DNA of 64,000 bases from the NCBI RefSeq assembly GCF_007341385.1, contig NZ_VJYD01000004.1, positions 1 through 64,000 on the forward strand, in the 5' to 3' direction. Source of the DNA: Flavobacterium daemonense (GTDB lineage Bacteria > Bacteroidota > Bacteroidia > Flavobacteriales > Flavobacteriaceae). The position numbers were made by a program, and so were the translations under genes. Below, piece after piece: positions 32,985-61,332 of this stretch. Each line of letters begins with the position of its first letter. The first letter of the stretch is position 1. The notes below the pieces were generated by a model that was not told the origin of the DNA, made no database searches, and saw only the letters and a program-made list of their open reading frames with translations.

Positions 32985-33337
32985 GATTATTTTAAATTTA
33001 AAACGTCAAAATTCAACAAATCAATATTAAAAAGCAACATTTTATCACAATAATTAAAATTTGAATCCCGACAATTCTTCCGTTTTATTTATTCAGCAAT
33101 CTGAGATTTCACCAAAATCAACATTTTTTGACAACATTTTCGTTAAAAATCAATTCAATGTATAAGGTTTACAAGCAAAAAAAGCATTCTTAAATATATC
33201 AAAACTTCAATTTAGCTTATCTAATTTTAACAAATACTCAATATTGATTTTTTGAGATTTGAATTATTAAAATATTCGTAAAAAGGCAATAACAATTTTA
33301 AATCCTACTTAAAAGCTGTACTTTTGAAAAATCAAAA
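32985..33337. other. Divergent regulatory region, hutH / thr operon
   Basis: About 350 bases, very AT-rich, with no gene. The hutH promoter must be at its left end (TAAATTTA-type sequence on the minus strand just before the start codon) and the thr promoter at the right end. Clear operators were not recognised. Confidence 0.5.
33319..33326 (+). promoter_or_regulatory. -7 box of the threonine operon
   Basis: TACTTTTG matches the Bacteroidota TAnnTTTG consensus exactly and is only 11 bases before the leader start codon, so the leader would be close to the 5' end of the mRNA, as in classical attenuators. The -33 box is not clear. Confidence 0.55.
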
Positions 33338-33439
33338 ATGAAAAGTAACAGCACAAAATATCATTCTACAATAACAACTCAAACTGGAGTTGCAATTGCT
33401 GCTACAACAATTTCTACTACAACAACAACTACCCCTTAG
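33338..33439 (+). CDS. thrL: Threonine operon leader peptide
   Basis: This short gene encodes a 33-residue peptide with 13 Thr and 3 Ile residues; positions 27-32 are six Thr codons in a row just before Pro and the TAG stop. It starts 11 bases after the -7 box and lies 188 bases before thrA, as expected for a translation-attenuation leader of the E. coli ThrL kind (12 of the last 23 residues are Thr). The stop codon sits inside ACCCCTTAGGGGT, which can fold as a hairpin. Not homologous in sequence to ThrL; the role is inferred from composition and position. Confidence 0.8.
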   Translation: MKSNSTKYHSTITTQTGVAIAATTISTTTTTTP

Positions 33440-33484
33440 GGGTATACATTTTTACATATAATCCTAGGTTACCTATACTTTTTT
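33431..33484 (+). promoter_or_regulatory. Putative attenuator hairpins before thrA
   Basis: ACCCC-TTA-GGGGT (33431-33443) folds at the leader stop codon. Downstream, TAGG-TTA-CCTA (33465-33475), or a GTATA/TATAC pair (33442-33446 with 33474-33478), precedes six T residues (33479-33484). The first hairpin and the GTATA pairing share bases, so they exclude each other, as in attenuators. The stems are short and folding has not been calculated. Confidence 0.5.
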
Positions 33485-33627
33485 CTTGAAAGAAGAGAGT
33501 TATTGGATACATAAAAAATATTGCATAAAAGAAAAAATAGTCGAAGTTTTCCGTTTCAGTTCACAGTTGATAACCTTTGAACCTTTGTTACTCAAACCTT
33601 TGCACCTTATTAAAAAATATCAAAAAA

Positions 33628-36075
33628 ATGAAAGTATTAAAATTTGGCGGAACTTCGGTTGCCAATGCTCAAAATATAAAACTCGTTCTCGAAATTGTTA
33701 AGCAAAAAGCCGAAAAAGACAAATTAGTTGTTGTAGTTTCTGCCTTAAGCAAAGTGACCGATTTACTGCAATTGGCAGCGGCAAAAGCGGCAGCAAACGA
33801 TGAAAGCTTTAGAGAAGTTGTTGCCGAAATCGAGAAAAAACACCTTGATACACTAAAAGAATTGATTCCGGTAAGCGGGCAAAGCAGTTTGTTGAGCCAT
33901 GTAAAAAGAATCATTAATCACTTAGAAACGTTGTTAGACGGCTGTTTCTTGCTTGGCGAATTATCTCCAAGAACTGCTGATACTATTTTAAGTTTCGGAG
34001 AATTGCTTTCGTCATACATCATCGCTCAGGCGTATCAGCAAATCAACAATGACGCGGTTTATAAAGACAGCCGTGAACTGATTAAAACAAATGCTGATTT
34101 TGGGAAAGCGGTTGTAAATTTCGAAATTTCAAACAAATTAATTCAGGAATATTTTGCTTCAAATGATTCAAAAATCAATATTCTACCAGGTTTTATCGCG
34201 CAGACTTTAGACGGAATCACTTCGACTTTAGGTCGTGGCGGATCGGATTATACTGCGGCAATTATCGCGGGAGCAATTGATGCAGAACAACTTGAAATCT
34301 GGACTGACGTGAACGGAATGTTTACTGCAAACCCTAAAATCGTAAAACAAGCACAGCCTATTGCGAACATTTCATATCAGGAAGCGATGGAATTATCGCA
34401 TTTTGGTGCCAAAGTTTTGTATCCGCCAACAATTCAGCCAGTTTTAAGAAAAAATATTCCAATTTTAATCAAAAACACTTTTGAACCGGAAGCTGTTGGA
34501 ACTTTAATTTCTGATACTGTTGTATCAAAAGATACTGTTGTAAAAGGAATCAGCCATATCGACAATATTTCGCTTTTAACGCTTGAAGGTCCCGGAATGA
34601 TTGGAGTTGCTGGTTCGTCAAGACGTTTGTTTGAAGTATTGTCTCAGGAAAAAATCAACGTAATTTTTATTACTCAAGCTTCTTCTGAGCATTCAATTTG
34701 TATCGGAATTTTAAATTCGGATGCTGATAATGCCGAAGCTGCGATCAACAGAGCTTTTGAAATCGAAATTGCGCAGAACAAAATCGATCCTTGCTATGTA
34801 GAAAAAGACCTTTGCATTATTGCTTTGGTTGGTGAAAACATGAAAAACCACCAAGGTTTGAGTGGAAGAATGTTCAGCACTTTAGGGAAAAACAACGTCA
34901 ACATTCGTGCGATTGCGCAAGGTGCTTCTGAAAGAAATATTTCGACTGTAATCAATGAAAGAGATGTTAAAAAAGCGCTGAATACTTTGCACGAAAATTT
35001 CTTCGAAGAAAACACAAAACAGCTGAATTTATTCGTAATGGGTGTTGGAAACGTTGGCGAGAAATTCATCGAACAAATTCACAATCAAAGAAAGTTCTTA
35101 AAAGAAGTTTTAAAAATCAATGTTCGCGTAATTGCGTTGTCGAACTCAAGAAAAATGCTTTTTGACGAAGACGGAATTTCATTAAAAGACTGGCAATCAA
35201 CTTTAGAAAAAGGAGAAACTGCAATTCCAACAGAATTCATCGCGCGTGCAAAAGAATTGAATTTACGCAACAGCATTTTCGTAGATATTACAGCAAATGC
35301 AAGCGTTTCTGAAATGTATGAGAAATTCTTGAAAGAAAGTATTGCAGTTGTAACTTGTAATAAAATTGCTTGTTCATCTGCTTACGACAACTATAAAAAA
35401 TTAAAAAGCTTATCTCGCCAATACAACGCTCCGTTTTTATTTGAAACGAATGTTGGTGCGGGATTGCCAATTATTGATACTGTAAAAAACCTTATTGCAT
35501 CTGGTGATAAAGTGCATAAAATTCAGGCGGTTTTATCGGGGAGTTTGAACTTCATTTTCAACAATTTCGATCAAAACAATTCTTTCCACGATGTGGTTAA
35601 AGAAGCCGGAGTTCAAGGATTCACAGAACCAGATCCAAAAATTGACTTAAGTGGCGTTGACGTAGCTCGTAAAATCCTGATTCTTATTCGCGAAAGCGGT
35701 TACGAAATGGACATCGATGCCATTGCAAATGAATCGTTTTTACCAGCAGAATGTTTAGCAACAACAAACAACGATGATTTTTTTGCTTCGTTAATCAAAC
35801 ACGCCGCTCATTTTGAGAACATTTACAAAGAAGCTTTAGCCAAAGATTCAAGATTGAAATATGTAGCGCAATTCGAAAACGGAAAAGCAAGCGTTGGTCT
35901 GCAATTCATTCCGAAAGATCATCCTTTCTACAATTTAGAAGGAAAAGACAACATCGTATTGTTCTACACTGATCGCTACGTAGATCAGCCTTTATTGATA
36001 AAAGGAGCTGGAGCTGGAGCAGCGGTAACAGCATCAGGAATTTTTGCTGACGTTATTAGAATTGGAAATATCTAA
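33628..36075 (+). CDS. thrA: Bifunctional aspartate kinase / homoserine dehydrogenase
   Basis: This 815-residue bifunctional protein catalyses the first and third steps from aspartate to threonine and methionine. Start taken at the ATG at 33628 (MKVLKFGGTSVANA), since a start at 33577 would prepend 17 residues encoded by repeat-like sequence. The N-terminal kinase has KFGGTSVANA and TLGRGGSDYTAAIIAGA. Two ACT regulatory domains follow (about 310-460). The dehydrogenase has VMGVGNVGEKFIEQI, VTCNKIA, FLFETNVGAGLPIIDT and GFTEPDPKIDLSGVDVARKILIL. It is likely threonine-inhibited and attenuated. Confidence 0.96.
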   Translation: MKVLKFGGTSVANAQNIKLVLEIVKQKAEKDKLVVVVSALSKVTDLLQLAAAKAAANDESFREVVAEIEKKHLDTLKELIPVSGQSSLLSHVKRIINHLETLLDGCFLLGELSPRTADTILSFGELLSSYIIAQAYQQINNDAVYKDSRELIKTNADFGKAVVNFEISNKLIQEYFASNDSKINILPGFIAQTLDGITSTLGRGGSDYTAAIIAGAIDAEQLEIWTDVNGMFTANPKIVKQAQPIANISYQEAMELSHFGAKVLYPPTIQPVLRKNIPILIKNTFEPEAVGTLISDTVVSKDTVVKGISHIDNISLLTLEGPGMIGVAGSSRRLFEVLSQEKINVIFITQASSEHSICIGILNSDADNAEAAINRAFEIEIAQNKIDPCYVEKDLCIIALVGENMKNHQGLSGRMFSTLGKNNVNIRAIAQGASERNISTVINERDVKKALNTLHENFFEENTKQLNLFVMGVGNVGEKFIEQIHNQRKFLKEVLKINVRVIALSNSRKMLFDEDGISLKDWQSTLEKGETAIPTEFIARAKELNLRNSIFVDITANASVSEMYEKFLKESIAVVTCNKIACSSAYDNYKKLKSLSRQYNAPFLFETNVGAGLPIIDTVKNLIASGDKVHKIQAVLSGSLNFIFNNFDQNNSFHDVVKEAGVQGFTEPDPKIDLSGVDVARKILILIRESGYEMDIDAIANESFLPAECLATTNNDDFFASLIKHAAHFENIYKEALAKDSRLKYVAQFENGKASVGLQFIPKDHPFYNLEGKDNIVLFYTDRYVDQPLLIKGAGAGAAVTASGIFADVIRIGNI

Positions 36076-36220
36076 AGAGGTACAAAGGTGCAAAGGCACA
36101 AAGGGACAAAGTTAAAAACCTTTAAACCTATGAATCTTTGCCACTATGAACCTTAAAAAAACAATAAGTAGTAAACCTCTAAACCTTTGAGCCTTTGCCA
36201 CTATGAACCTTTAAAAAGAA
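36076..36220 (+). repeat. 'Accttt' degenerate repeat between thrA and thrB
   Basis: This 145-base gap is made of imperfect copies of acaaaggtgcaaagg and its complement ccttttgcacctttg-like runs (aaacctttgagcctttgcc). Related tracts lie before thrA (33560-33612) and around YbaB (61104-61330). It can form a long imperfect hairpin within the thr mRNA. Confidence 0.65.
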
Positions 36221-37141
36221 ATGGAAATAAAATTATTCTGTCCCGCTACAATTGCAAACCTTTCATGCGGATTTGACGTACTTGGACTTTGCTTAGACAA
36301 TGCGGGCGATGAAATGATTGTTCGAAAAGTCGATCAAAAAGGAGTTCGAATCACTAAAATTGTCGGTGCCGATTTGCCTTTGGAAACCGAGAAAAACGTC
36401 TCTGGAGTTGCTGCTTTGGCGATGCTTGAAACTTTAGGCGATTTGGATTTTGGCTTCGAAATCGAAATTTATAAACACATAAAAGCCGGAAGCGGGATTG
36501 GAAGCAGCGCCGCAAGTTCTGCCGGAGCAGTTTTTGGAATTAATGAATTATTAGGAAGACCGTATTCTCGTAAAGATTTAGTTCAGTTTGCGATGCAGGG
36601 GGAAAAATTGGCCAGCGGAAACGCACATGCCGACAACGTTGCTCCTGCCCTTTTAGGTGGCTTTACTTTGGTAAGAAGTTATGCGCCACTTGATATTATC
36701 AGAATTGACAGTCCAGAGGAATTATACGCAACGGTGGTTCACCCTCAAATTGAATTAAAAACTTCTGACGCACGTTCGGTTTTGAAACAAAACGTTTCCC
36801 TAAAAAGCGCCATCATGCAATGGGGAAATGTAGGCGGACTTGTAGCAGGTCTTTACACTAAAGATTACGAATTAATCGGAAGATCGCTTCATGATGAAAT
36901 CGTAGAACCTTTACGAAGTGTTTTGATCCCGGGATTCGATCAAATCAAACAAACGGCTTATGAAAATGGTGCTTTAGGTTCAGGAATTTCGGGTTCTGGT
37001 CCATCAATTTTTGCTTTAAGCAGAGGAAAAGAAACCGCTGAAAAAATCGCAAAAGCCATGAGCGACGTTTACGAAAAAATGAATTTACCGTATGAAATTC
37101 ACGTTTCGAAAATCAATCCCGATGGCGTTAGGATCTTGTAA
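36221..37141 (+). CDS. thrB: Homoserine kinase
   Basis: ThrB phosphorylates homoserine. The 306-residue protein is a GHMP kinase: ATIANLSCGFDVLGLCLD at the N-terminus, the ATP loop AGSGIGSSAASSAGAVFG (about 88-105), HADNVAPALLGGFTL and GALGSGISGSGPSIFAL near the C-terminus. It is the second gene of the thr operon, 145 bases after thrA, with repeats in between. Confidence 0.96.
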   Translation: MEIKLFCPATIANLSCGFDVLGLCLDNAGDEMIVRKVDQKGVRITKIVGADLPLETEKNVSGVAALAMLETLGDLDFGFEIEIYKHIKAGSGIGSSAASSAGAVFGINELLGRPYSRKDLVQFAMQGEKLASGNAHADNVAPALLGGFTLVRSYAPLDIIRIDSPEELYATVVHPQIELKTSDARSVLKQNVSLKSAIMQWGNVGGLVAGLYTKDYELIGRSLHDEIVEPLRSVLIPGFDQIKQTAYENGALGSGISGSGPSIFALSRGKETAEKIAKAMSDVYEKMNLPYEIHVSKINPDGVRIL

Positions 37142-37374: not shown

Positions 37375-38664
37375 ATGAAATACTACAGTTTAAACCATAA
37401 TGCCCCAAAAGTTTCTTTCAAAGAAGCCGTAATACAAGGATTAGCAACTGACAAAGGATTATATTTCCCAGAAAGCATTACTGCTTTAGATCCTTCATTT
37501 TTTGATAAAATCGAAAGTTTAAGCCACGAAGAAATTGCTTTTGAAGCGATCAAACAATTCGTTGGCGATGAAATACCTGCAGACAAATTAAAAGAAATCA
37601 TTGCCGAGACTTTAGTTTTTGATTTTCCGGTGGTGAAAGTCGAAGACGGAATCTATTCGTTAGAATTATTTCACGGTCCTACAATGGCTTTTAAAGACGT
37701 TGGAGCGCGTTTTATGTCACGTTGTTTGGGTTATTTCAACAAAGATAAAAAAGACGCTAAAAACACTGTTTTAGTAGCCACTTCCGGTGATACTGGAGGA
37801 GCAGTTGCTAGCGGATTTCTTGGCGTTGACGGCGTTGATGTTGTCATTTTATATCCGTCAGGAAAAGTGAGCGATATTCAGGAAAAACAATTGACTACTT
37901 TAGGACAAAACATTAAAGCGCTTGAAGTGGATGGTGTTTTTGATGATTGTCAGGACATGGTGAAAAAAGCGTTTTTAGATGAAACTTTGGCACATAAAAA
38001 CCTGACTTCGGCGAATTCTATTAATATTGCGCGCTGGTTACCGCAAATGTTTTATTTCTTCTTTGCTTACAAAGCGTTGAAAAGCCAAAACAAACCTTTA
38101 GTTTTCTCTTGTCCAAGCGGGAACTTCGGGAATATCTGTGCCGGAATTATGACAAAGAAATTAGGTTTGCCAATTGAACATTTTGTAGCGTCTACAAACG
38201 TAAACGATACGGTGCCAAGATTCTTGGAAAACGGAAAATACGACCCAAAACCTTCTAAAGCAACAATTTCTAACGCAATGGACGTTGGAAACCCAAGTAA
38301 CTTTATTAGAATTCAGGAATTGTACAATAATGACTTAAAAGCTTTCGAAAAAGATTTCTCTTCTTATAGTTATACTGACGAAGAAACCCTAGTTGCTCTA
38401 AAGAAAATCTATAACATAGATGGTTATATCGCAGAACCGCACGGCGCTGTTGGTTATTTAGGTTTGAAAAAAGAATTGGAAAAACACCCTAACGCAATTG
38501 GTATTTTCTTAGAAACAGCGCATCCTATTAAGTTTTTGGATGTTGTTGAACCTGCTTTAGGAATTACACTTCCTATTCCTGCTCAAATTGAGAGTGTTAT
38601 TAATGAGGAGAAGGTTAGTGTGAAGATTGGGACTTATGAGGAGTTGAAGTATTTCTTGGGATAA
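37375..38664 (+). CDS. thrC: Threonine synthase
   Basis: ThrC converts O-phosphohomoserine to threonine. The 429-residue PLP enzyme shows the type I form: YYSLNHNAPKVSFKEAVIQGLATDKGLYFPE at the N-terminus, GPTMAFKDVGARFMSR with the PLP Lys107, VATSGDTGGAVASGF (phosphate-binding loop) and FVASTNVNDTVPRFLENG. It closes the operon ahead of a long perfect terminator. Confidence 0.97.
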   Translation: MKYYSLNHNAPKVSFKEAVIQGLATDKGLYFPESITALDPSFFDKIESLSHEEIAFEAIKQFVGDEIPADKLKEIIAETLVFDFPVVKVEDGIYSLELFHGPTMAFKDVGARFMSRCLGYFNKDKKDAKNTVLVATSGDTGGAVASGFLGVDGVDVVILYPSGKVSDIQEKQLTTLGQNIKALEVDGVFDDCQDMVKKAFLDETLAHKNLTSANSINIARWLPQMFYFFFAYKALKSQNKPLVFSCPSGNFGNICAGIMTKKLGLPIEHFVASTNVNDTVPRFLENGKYDPKPSKATISNAMDVGNPSNFIRIQELYNNDLKAFEKDFSSYSYTDEETLVALKKIYNIDGYIAEPHGAVGYLGLKKELEKHPNAIGIFLETAHPIKFLDVVEPALGITLPIPAQIESVINEEKVSVKIGTYEELKYFLG

Positions 38665-61103: not shown

Positions 61104-61332
61104 GGTTCAAAGTTGCAAAGGTCCAAAGGCTCAGAGGTTTTCTACATTGTAACCAATAAAAAAGACGCATTAAAATGCGTCTTTTTTTATTTTAAACCTT
61201 TGTCCCTCTGAACCCCTGCAACTTTGAAACTTTGCAGCTTTAAACCTTTGCTCCTCTGAGCCTCTGCAACTTTGAACCTTCGAAGCTTCAAACCTTTGCC
61301 CCTCTGAACCTTTGCAACTTTGAACCTTTTTT
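61104..61332. repeat. 'Accttt' degenerate repeats and terminator after ybaB
   Basis: GACGCAT and ATGCGTC (61158-61188) form a terminator with A and T runs. On each side lie degenerate copies of gcaaaggtccaaaggctcagagg and its complement (ctctgaacccctgcaactttgaaactttg). The family matches the tracts at 36076 and 33560. No gene is in this 229-base gap. Confidence 0.75.

Follow-up and report, generated by a model that had tools for sequence, protein, structure and literature searches.

The thr operon of Flavobacterium daemonense is, by its sequence and that of its relatives, almost certainly preceded by a threonine-sensing leader peptide. In the leader RNA we found a conserved series of elements: a hairpin in the ORF (P0), a run of Thr codons, a hairpin at the stop codon (P1), about 10 nt of spacer, the single-stranded motif CAUAU(N)nYCC, and a further hairpin (P2). 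The sensor is of a type already known; the output module is undescribed as far as our literature searches reach. In the explanation that we prefer, and to which we give a little less than an even chance, the position of the ribosome on the Thr run would set the folding of P1, and P1 and the motif (with P2) would act directly on RNA polymerase. The features are listed below in coordinates of the window, by which we mean the whole 64,000-nt stretch that was analyzed (contig NZ_VJYD01000004.1, positions 1 to 64,000).

33319 to 33326, + strand: exact TAnnTTTG box (sigma-A -7 box), TACTTTTG, 11 nt 5' of the leader ATG, from the sequence
33338 to 33439, + strand: leader ORF, MKSNSTKYHSTITTQTGVAIAATTISTTTTTTP, 33 codons, 13 of them Thr, from the sequence and conservation counts
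33356 to 33366, + strand: 5' copy of the motif ahead of P0, AAATATCATTC, weak here by motif score (6.2 bits)
33375 to 33392, + strand: P0 hairpin within the leader ORF, CAACUC-AAACUG-GAGUUG, from folding statistics
33416 to 33433, + strand: run of six Thr codons abutting P1, from the sequence and Thr enrichment across leaders
33430 to 33444, + strand: P1 hairpin, UACCCC-UUA-GGGGUA, containing the stop codon, from the sequence, folding and comparison
33454 to 33464, + strand: single-stranded motif ACATATAATCC at fixed spacing 3' of P1, from motif counts
33478 to 33499, + strand: P2 hairpin CTTTTTTCTTGAAAGAAGAGAG, that is CUUUUUUCU-UGAA-AGAAGAGAG, from folding statistics
33628 to 36075, + strand: thrA, bifunctional aspartate kinase/homoserine dehydrogenase I (NF006959, 1050 bits, cut-off 726)
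36221 to 37141, + strand: thrB, homoserine kinase (NF002288 and TIGR00191, both over cut-off)
37375 to 38664, + strand: thrC, threonine synthase (TIGR00260, 298.6 bits, cut-off 167.1)

The three genes of the window are consecutive in the order thrA, thrB, thrC, and ThrA is 97% and 95% identical to its counterparts in F. zhairuonense and F. potami, respectively. To count leaders ahead of thrA we used a fixed rule, which required an ORF of 10-60 codons that starts with ATG and has three or more Thr codons among the 12 before a CCC..GGG hairpin at its end. The first sample comprised the regions 5' of thrA in 80 named genomes and at 29 loci from a 60-genome search, 109 in all; the search had given 30 loci, of which L030, lying before a paralogous thrA, was excluded. 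Leaders conforming to the rule were present in 80 of the 109 (55 of the 80 named genomes and 25 of the 29 other relatives), compared with 3 of 2180 dinucleotide shuffles, none of 109 reverse complements and none of 35 his, phe and ilv upstreams. A strong thrA match was present in 163 of 219 genomes, and 100 further Flavobacterium stretches chosen from these yielded 95 leaders; five of these stretches duplicate named genomes, and with duplicates removed the count is 91 of 95. The shuffle, reverse-complement and further-Flavobacterium counts led us to reject a chance Thr-rich ORF. Among the 34 upstreams that miss the ATG-leader rule, 12 have P1 together with a leader that starts at a codon other than ATG or is poorer in Thr, including the GTG/TTG leaders of Chitinophagaceae, and 22 are without P1 by pattern. 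All but one of these 22 are also without a Thr-rich ORF, the exception (L150) having such an ORF with a different GC hairpin: leader ORF and P1 are retained or lost together.

Codon usage in 135 non-redundant leaders (175 thinned by shared 9-mers) points to the amino acid that is read. Thr accounts for 29.3% of their residues, 5.5-fold the 5.3% in the long ORFs of the window, and occupies codons -1, -2, -3 and -4 before the ACC of P1 in 113, 116, 106 and 83 leaders. All four third bases are used at these Thr codons, and such freedom indicates selection for Thr codons rather than for one RNA string. The A of ACCC lies in frame 0 in all 135 leaders, and the median leader has 10 Thr codons, some of them well 5' of P1. 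Because the ORF is Thr-rich and kept in frame, it very likely senses charged tRNA-Thr. Ile is the commonest substitute at the first three codons before P1; overall it is not enriched (8.2% vs 8.2%), and we therefore rejected it as a co-signal. The hallmarks of leader-peptide regulation found here are clustered cognate codons in a short, putatively translated ORF before the operon, an own promoter (as the box only) and control codons conserved in frame across relatives.

These results uphold much of the original prediction, made from the window alone: the 33-codon ORF with its 13 Thr codons, the exact box 11 nt before the ATG and the 188 nt from leader stop to thrA all hold as to coordinates and counts, the proposed reading of charged tRNA-Thr is very likely correct on the evidence of conservation, and the flavobacterial conservation of Thr codons and frame that it had set as a check is kept (135 of 135 in frame; 91 of 95 Flavobacterium upstreams conforming). 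The six consecutive Thr codons that it placed before the stop are real as a run; they do not stand directly at the stop, since one Pro codon intervenes before TAG.

The TAnnTTTG consensus is that given in PMC9723704, and transcription is expected to start a few nucleotides 3' of the TACTTTTG box. Of the 135 leaders, 119 have such a box no more than 45 nt from the leader ATG, vs 4.8 expected; between leader stop and thrA there is none in the window, and 7 of the 135 leaders have one. From this distribution the RNA very likely begins 5' of the leader. As for an RNA start downstream of 33440, which had been named as an argument against the leader, the window's sequence, with no box between leader stop and thrA, seems to give no sign of it.

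Other elements were noted as well. A AACCTTTGAACCTTTG-like repeat occurs at 33572-33587, 36117-36197, 61116-61139 and 61307-61322 of the window (8 places with at most 2 mismatches, 0.14 expected), with copies from leader to thrA and from thrA to thrB; the leader copy is absent from a close relative (L003). A related stretch, ATGAAATCGCT...AGCGATACC, was seen before thrA in L007 and before the paralogous thrA-type gene in L030, and only its ...AGCGATACC portion is present before thrA in L009; it is an inverted repeat spanning a small ORF and may be a separate element.

The stop codon lies within P1, as had been predicted for an ACCCC-TTA-GGGGT hairpin, the G of TAG being the first base of the 3' arm. 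The stop hairpin is present in 94 of 95 genus leaders and in 80 of 85 leaders of the set of named genomes plus 29 relatives; when displaced by 55 nt as a control, the hairpin rule gave 0 and 2 matches in these sets, and 5 and 6 in the families f30 and f53, where the control is accordingly less clean. The first base of the stop falls inside P1 in 59 of the 135 leaders and no more than 10 nt past the last G of P1 in another 72, while 4 have a more distant stop; with 131 of 135 in the first two groups, a terminating ribosome would nearly always cover P1. Covariation is weak (a score reached by 104 of 500 shuffles; one pair changed on both sides in alignment A3, of 46 hand-picked rows, alignment A2 holding 38 of the 46 proposed rows), which we attribute to the near invariance of P1 within Flavobacteriaceae. 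Aberrant forms occur in L136 (GCACCC-UUGU-GGGUGC), L140 and L150 (AAUCCGC-UAA-GCGGAUU).

Downstream of P1 the conserved element is a sequence. Between P1 and P2, 96 of the 135 leaders match ACAUAUAAUCC at no fewer than 9 of 11 positions (about 1 expected from mononucleotide shuffles), and CAUAU starts 9-12 nt 3' of P1 in 103. A motif-like match of 9 or 10 of 11 was found within 330 nt in 3 of the 22 P1-less upstreams (L087, L125, L127). We rejected the idea that the UAA of the motif is a coded stop, since 21 of the 135 leaders have C and 9 have T at position 7, and we rejected the motif as a general genome element: the genome has 7 exact copies of ACATATAATCC (the backward-read pattern occurs twice), and a CCC..GGG hairpin precedes the thr copy alone, at a distance of about 10 nt, one other site (L037) having GTCCC-AGAC-GGGAC about 30 nt 5'. 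A covariance model of Thr run, P1 and motif (R1) matched, under strict filters, 50 of the 149 genomes sampled from the family and 9 of the 247 sampled from the class, at one place per matched genome; these counts are probably low estimates, as the model is short.

The family f30, of which 30 of 33 matches were examined, separates what is conserved in P1 from what is conserved in the motif. In 14 of its 30 thrA upstreams P1 is strand-swapped, reading ACGGG(G)-stop-(U)CCCGU or a near variant (the ACGGGG-UAA-UCCCGU type). The swapped P1 adjoins Thr/Ile codons and keeps the stop (UGA, UAG or UAA) in its loop in all 14, and CAUAU follows 9-11 nt 3' of it in 11 of the 14, being missing in 3. This swap, with spacing and CAUAU kept, indicates that P1 is conserved as a hairpin and the motif as a sequence. 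In the swapped relatives the P1 3' arm is C-rich, like the motif; pairing between P1 3' arm and motif cannot form there and thus is no common principle.

The composition of the RNA after P1 bears on an unlikely competitor of our preferred explanation, namely Rho-dependent attenuation, in which the C/A/U-rich, G-poor leader and post-P1 RNA would load Rho, and a ribosome on the Thr codons would hide the site or block Rho from polymerase. The genome has a rho gene, such a mechanism needs no intrinsic terminator, the 25 nt 3' of P1 contain only 4.5% G and 18.4% C (C/G 4.1), and from P1 to the AUG the C/G ratio is 1.67 vs 1.13 in 35 control 5' regions of the window. However, the excess per species is modest (C/G above 1.5 in 75 of 135 leaders vs 7 of 35 controls), and Rho leaves the 10-nt spacing, the CAUAU motif and the strand-swappable hairpin unexplained. 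The papers listed on this subject, by title and abstract start, appear not to describe such a leader in Bacteroidota.

The two outer hairpins are conserved as folds. Compared with dinucleotide shuffles, the P2 region has a mean z of -1.52 (118 of 135 leaders negative, 119 distinct arm pairs) and the P0 region, between ORF start and Thr run, a mean z of -1.39 (117 of 135 negative), with highly variable arms (106 distinct arm pairs); these z values, like all z and t values here, are overstated because the species are not independent. Against synonymous-codon resampling of the same peptide, in which some leaders were omitted, P0 was negative in 104 of 131 (Stouffer -9.1). The 314-nt leader of the window as a whole is not unusually stable (z -0.46). 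Before P0, 48 of the 135 leaders have a 5' copy of the motif scoring 6 bits or more, compared with a mean of 7.4 and a maximum of 13 in 50 rounds of codon-order shuffling. P0 often precedes a U-rich stretch and then passes the lenient terminator rule (e.g. L013, L020, L225, L241, L250), and may by itself act as a pause or weak stop signal.

A motif so placed might also be a binding site: CAUAU(N)nYCC would bind a protein or small RNA controlling the translation of thrA or the stability of its mRNA, with the site opened or hidden by the leader ribosome. Conservation at the sequence level, the fixed distance to P1, the location of P2 mostly 24-35 nt 3' of P1 and, in part of the species, the two motif copies before P2 and P0 all fit this proposal. 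We nevertheless judge it improbable: the 5' copy is found in only those 48 of 135 leaders, a dedicated protein would serve one operon, given that the module occurs once per matched genome, and inserts before thrA are tolerated in several species. The AUG of thrA shows moderate openness, with a median unpaired value of 0.61 and values below 0.5 in 21 of the 132 leaders used (some being omitted), and some species have about 80 nt of extra sequence between P2 and thrA; together these observations argue against control at the AUG itself.

How, then, could the leader end transcription? The original prediction was of a ribosome-mediated attenuator; in its classical form P1 would be the 1:2 hairpin, pairing of GGGGUAU with UAUAAUCC the antiterminator, and a terminator would follow. 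In the window there is no T tract 3' of P1 or P2: the second short hairpin of the prediction exists as P2, and its six-T tract (33479-33484) forms part of the 5' arm and is not a tail. Under a strict terminator rule 1 of the 135 thr leaders passed, and that one at P0, vs 22 of 33 his, phe and ilv upstreams from Flavobacterium and genomes of the same order (12 of 12 his, 4 of 11 phe, 6 of 10 ilv). Taken separately, the 95 genus leaders include none with a strict terminator, and the 85 of the named-plus-29 set include one. Under a lenient rule the controls rose to 12 of 12 his, 10 of 11 phe and 6 of 10 ilv, the phe stems having only three G-C pairs but eight- or nine-T tails; the ilv controls exclude two short loci (L065 and L071), and some of their misses are explained by several ilvD genes not being first in the operon. 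The lenient rule was passed by 32 of the 135 thr leaders (shuffle rate 1.9%), by reading 20 at P0 with a broken U-rich tail, 8 at P1 and 2 at P2, and on these matches the hairpin that acts might be P0, or in some species P1 might work as a weak terminator of the ordinary kind. We rejected P1 as an ordinary terminator in general (the T-rich stretch of the window starts about 5 nt 3' of the stem, and marine genera such as Maribacter are without one), as well as P2, which passes even the lenient rule in just those 2 of 135.

The antiterminator fared no better. In 80 species the 2:3 pairing was weaker than in shuffles on average (z +0.32, not negative in 59 of 80), and, in a test from which some leaders were omitted, pairing within species was not clearly better than across species for any pair of segments except the arms of P0 and P2. 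The rows for these two are biased, since the hairpins were chosen by folding, and the shuffle and resampling tests are fairer to them; the test is also blind to invariant segment pairs, and P1 is too invariant to register. Pairing of the P0 3' arm with the Thr run was rejected (t -1.7, not clearly better in the same species), as was a closing helix around P2, which had no overall support (motif with the region after P2, t +1.2). By these comparisons, the intrinsic terminator of a classical attenuator is missing under the strict rule from all but one of the 135 leaders, and its mutually exclusive antiterminator helix finds no support. Such an attenuator retains some support, in that an extended helix around P2 (AAUCC region with downstream GGAU or GGGU) folds in some Flavobacterium, the lenient rule finds P1 with a U-rich tail in 8 leaders, and relatives in f53 have truly classical thr attenuators. 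Against this stand the terminator counts, the failure of the 2:3 pairing and above all the 14 swapped relatives, whose C-rich P1 3' arm makes that pairing impossible and largely refutes the classical reading, to which we now give a small chance.

The f53 relatives (30 of 35 matches examined) are informative as to what P1 and the motif might do. Their thr leaders, and those of three f30 genomes, have a Thr/Ile-rich leader before the same thrA, as in the window. Unlike the window's, leaders of this type are classical: the end of the ORF, GGAGGAAG, is able to base-pair with CUUCCUCC in a terminator of the GCCUUCCUCC...GGAGGAAGGCUUUUUU type. A strict terminator is present in 18 of 25 f53 leaders, 5 of which also scored a P1-like hairpin, and the stop hairpin alone in 2; the remaining 5 scored with neither, by eye having a GC hairpin with a shorter or broken T run. 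In f30 the proportions are reversed, with P1 alone in 15 of 18 leaders, a terminator alone in 2 and both by rule in 1. That relatives have either the module or a real terminator points to one shared job, and we take it as evidence that the module at the stop codon achieves by another route what the terminator achieves. The type of thr leader switches inside one family and also between genera (L332/L333 vs most of L335-L361; L307, L325 and L329 vs L313-L323).

A last alternative, that P1, motif and P2 form a processive antitermination RNA whose two hairpins both form upon a far-upstream stall and modify polymerase, while a ribosome at the stop covers P1 and leaves polymerase termination-prone, would suit two hairpins with a conserved single-stranded link, the lack of a strict terminator and Thr codons well 5' of P1, but is very improbable because the Thr run abuts P1 and many stalls would open it.

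We return, therefore, to the leader-peptide regulator in which P1 and the motif act on polymerase itself. With little Thr-tRNA, the ribosome would stall on the Thr run abutting P1, the P1 5' arm would be kept open, and transcription would continue. With ample Thr-tRNA, the ribosome would arrive at the stop and depart, P1 would fold behind a polymerase delayed at CAUAU(N)nYCC, and transcription would end early, perhaps with Rho or NusG. The ribosome would have to leave before P1 folds, since the stop lies inside P1, and this needs the assumed delay of polymerase. The comparison of sequences supports the ORF, its codons and frame, P0, P1 at the stop, the spacing, the motif, the apparent lack of a canonical terminator and the alternation with terminators; translation of the ORF is presumed, and pathway logic suggests the direction of control. 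That P1 folding is the switch, and that a ribosome on the last Thr codons or the stop must open it, we consider slightly more probable than its contrary. That the output is transcriptional, with polymerase paused or subjected to factor-dependent termination at the motif some 10 nt past P1, we consider slightly less probable than not.

We place the output there on three grounds: the spacing known from hairpin-dependent pauses, the moderately open thrA start and the tolerated inserts of about 80 nt. In pauses of the E. coli his/trp type the pause hairpin is about 10 nt from the RNA 3' end, and the E. coli pause consensus includes a G at the pause site. The spacing of P1 and motif and the presence of a 3' motif fit this comparison; the pause-site G is absent from the motif. 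Further points count against the preferred explanation: there is no strict U-tract terminator, covariation in P1 is weak within Flavobacteriaceae, 32 of 135 leaders pass the lenient terminator rule, 3 of the 14 swapped relatives are without CAUAU, 5 f53 leaders score both types, the displaced hairpin rule still gives matches in f30 and f53, and 3 of the 22 P1-less upstreams have a motif-like match.

If this explanation is taken one step further, thr leaders in Bacteroidota may have a new kind of output module in place of the usual U-tract terminator, made up of the stop-codon hairpin, 10 nt, CAUAU(N)nYCC and a second hairpin, a generalization that we regard as possible and somewhat doubtful. 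The module would tell polymerase to stop or pause in a sequence-specific way, gated by a hairpin whose folding depends on a terminating or stalled ribosome, and lineages would have swapped module and classical terminator at the same locus. In textbook attenuation the output consists of terminator/antiterminator pairs; here the sensor is kept and a conserved module stands in the terminator's place, in many genomes across the phylum. Terminators are retained, by contrast, in the leaders of his, phe and ilv genes in related genomes and in thr leaders of a different family. These leaders form a ready comparative system for what can substitute for an intrinsic terminator, in a phylum that to our knowledge has unusual promoters and no Shine-Dalgarno sequences, and the module provides a marker by which to locate thr leaders of the kind that went unflagged by the Rfam library here.

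Leader-peptide attenuation in flavobacteria has been proposed before. Vitreschak and colleagues are said to have predicted attenuators in 2004, including threonine attenuators and some in Bacteroidetes. The Bacteroid-trp RNA is an attenuator-like leader for trp. It is described as a cis-regulatory candidate in Bacteroidetes (RF01692) in PMC2864571, and RF01692 has no match at the thr leader. For F. psychrophilum, Guerin et al. (2021) reported 'strong clues' for leader-peptide attenuation before amino-acid operons (PMC9723704, section 19), naming pheA and hisG among conserved 5' elements; 'thrA' and 'threonine' do not occur in the main text of that paper, to which our search was confined. Translation in F. 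johnsoniae has been mapped by ribosome profiling (PMC6847099), 'attenuat', 'uORF' and 'threonine' being absent from the text available, and leader-peptide-like small ORFs in Bacteroides are mentioned in PMC7366714. A thr leader in Bacteroidota was not among the matches listed in the open literature, by titles and abstract starts.

Of the known systems, the his, phe and ilv leaders of Flavobacterium and the same order likewise encode cognate-rich peptides directly before the gene and differ in ending in intrinsic terminators. The same genome has classical attenuators of all three kinds: before hisG (L042) LHHHH... then AAACCCGTTTGAGTACATCAAACGGGTTTTTT, before pheA (L054) RFYFSNNFYFFF... then AATCCTGATGCAAATCAGGATTTTTTTTT, and before ilvD (L066) QISIIITSVVVVNV... 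then AACCTTCCAAATACTGGAAGGTTTTTTTTT. The thr attenuator of E. coli resembles the leader described here in having a short Thr-rich ORF (ThrL) just before thrA of thrABC, and there a ribosome stalled at the Thr codons is the sensor. The Rfam Thr_leader covariance model found no match in 33300-33640, even at E 10. The suggestion that the flavobacterial leader is independent of ThrL fits this anatomy, but flavobacterial leader-peptide attenuation itself is already published (PMC9723704). Unlike the E. coli attenuator, the leader of the window has no strict terminator and no alternative helices that we could find, and Ile is not enriched overall in the 135 leaders; its stop codon lies instead at a GC hairpin, followed by the conserved CAUAU(N)nYCC.
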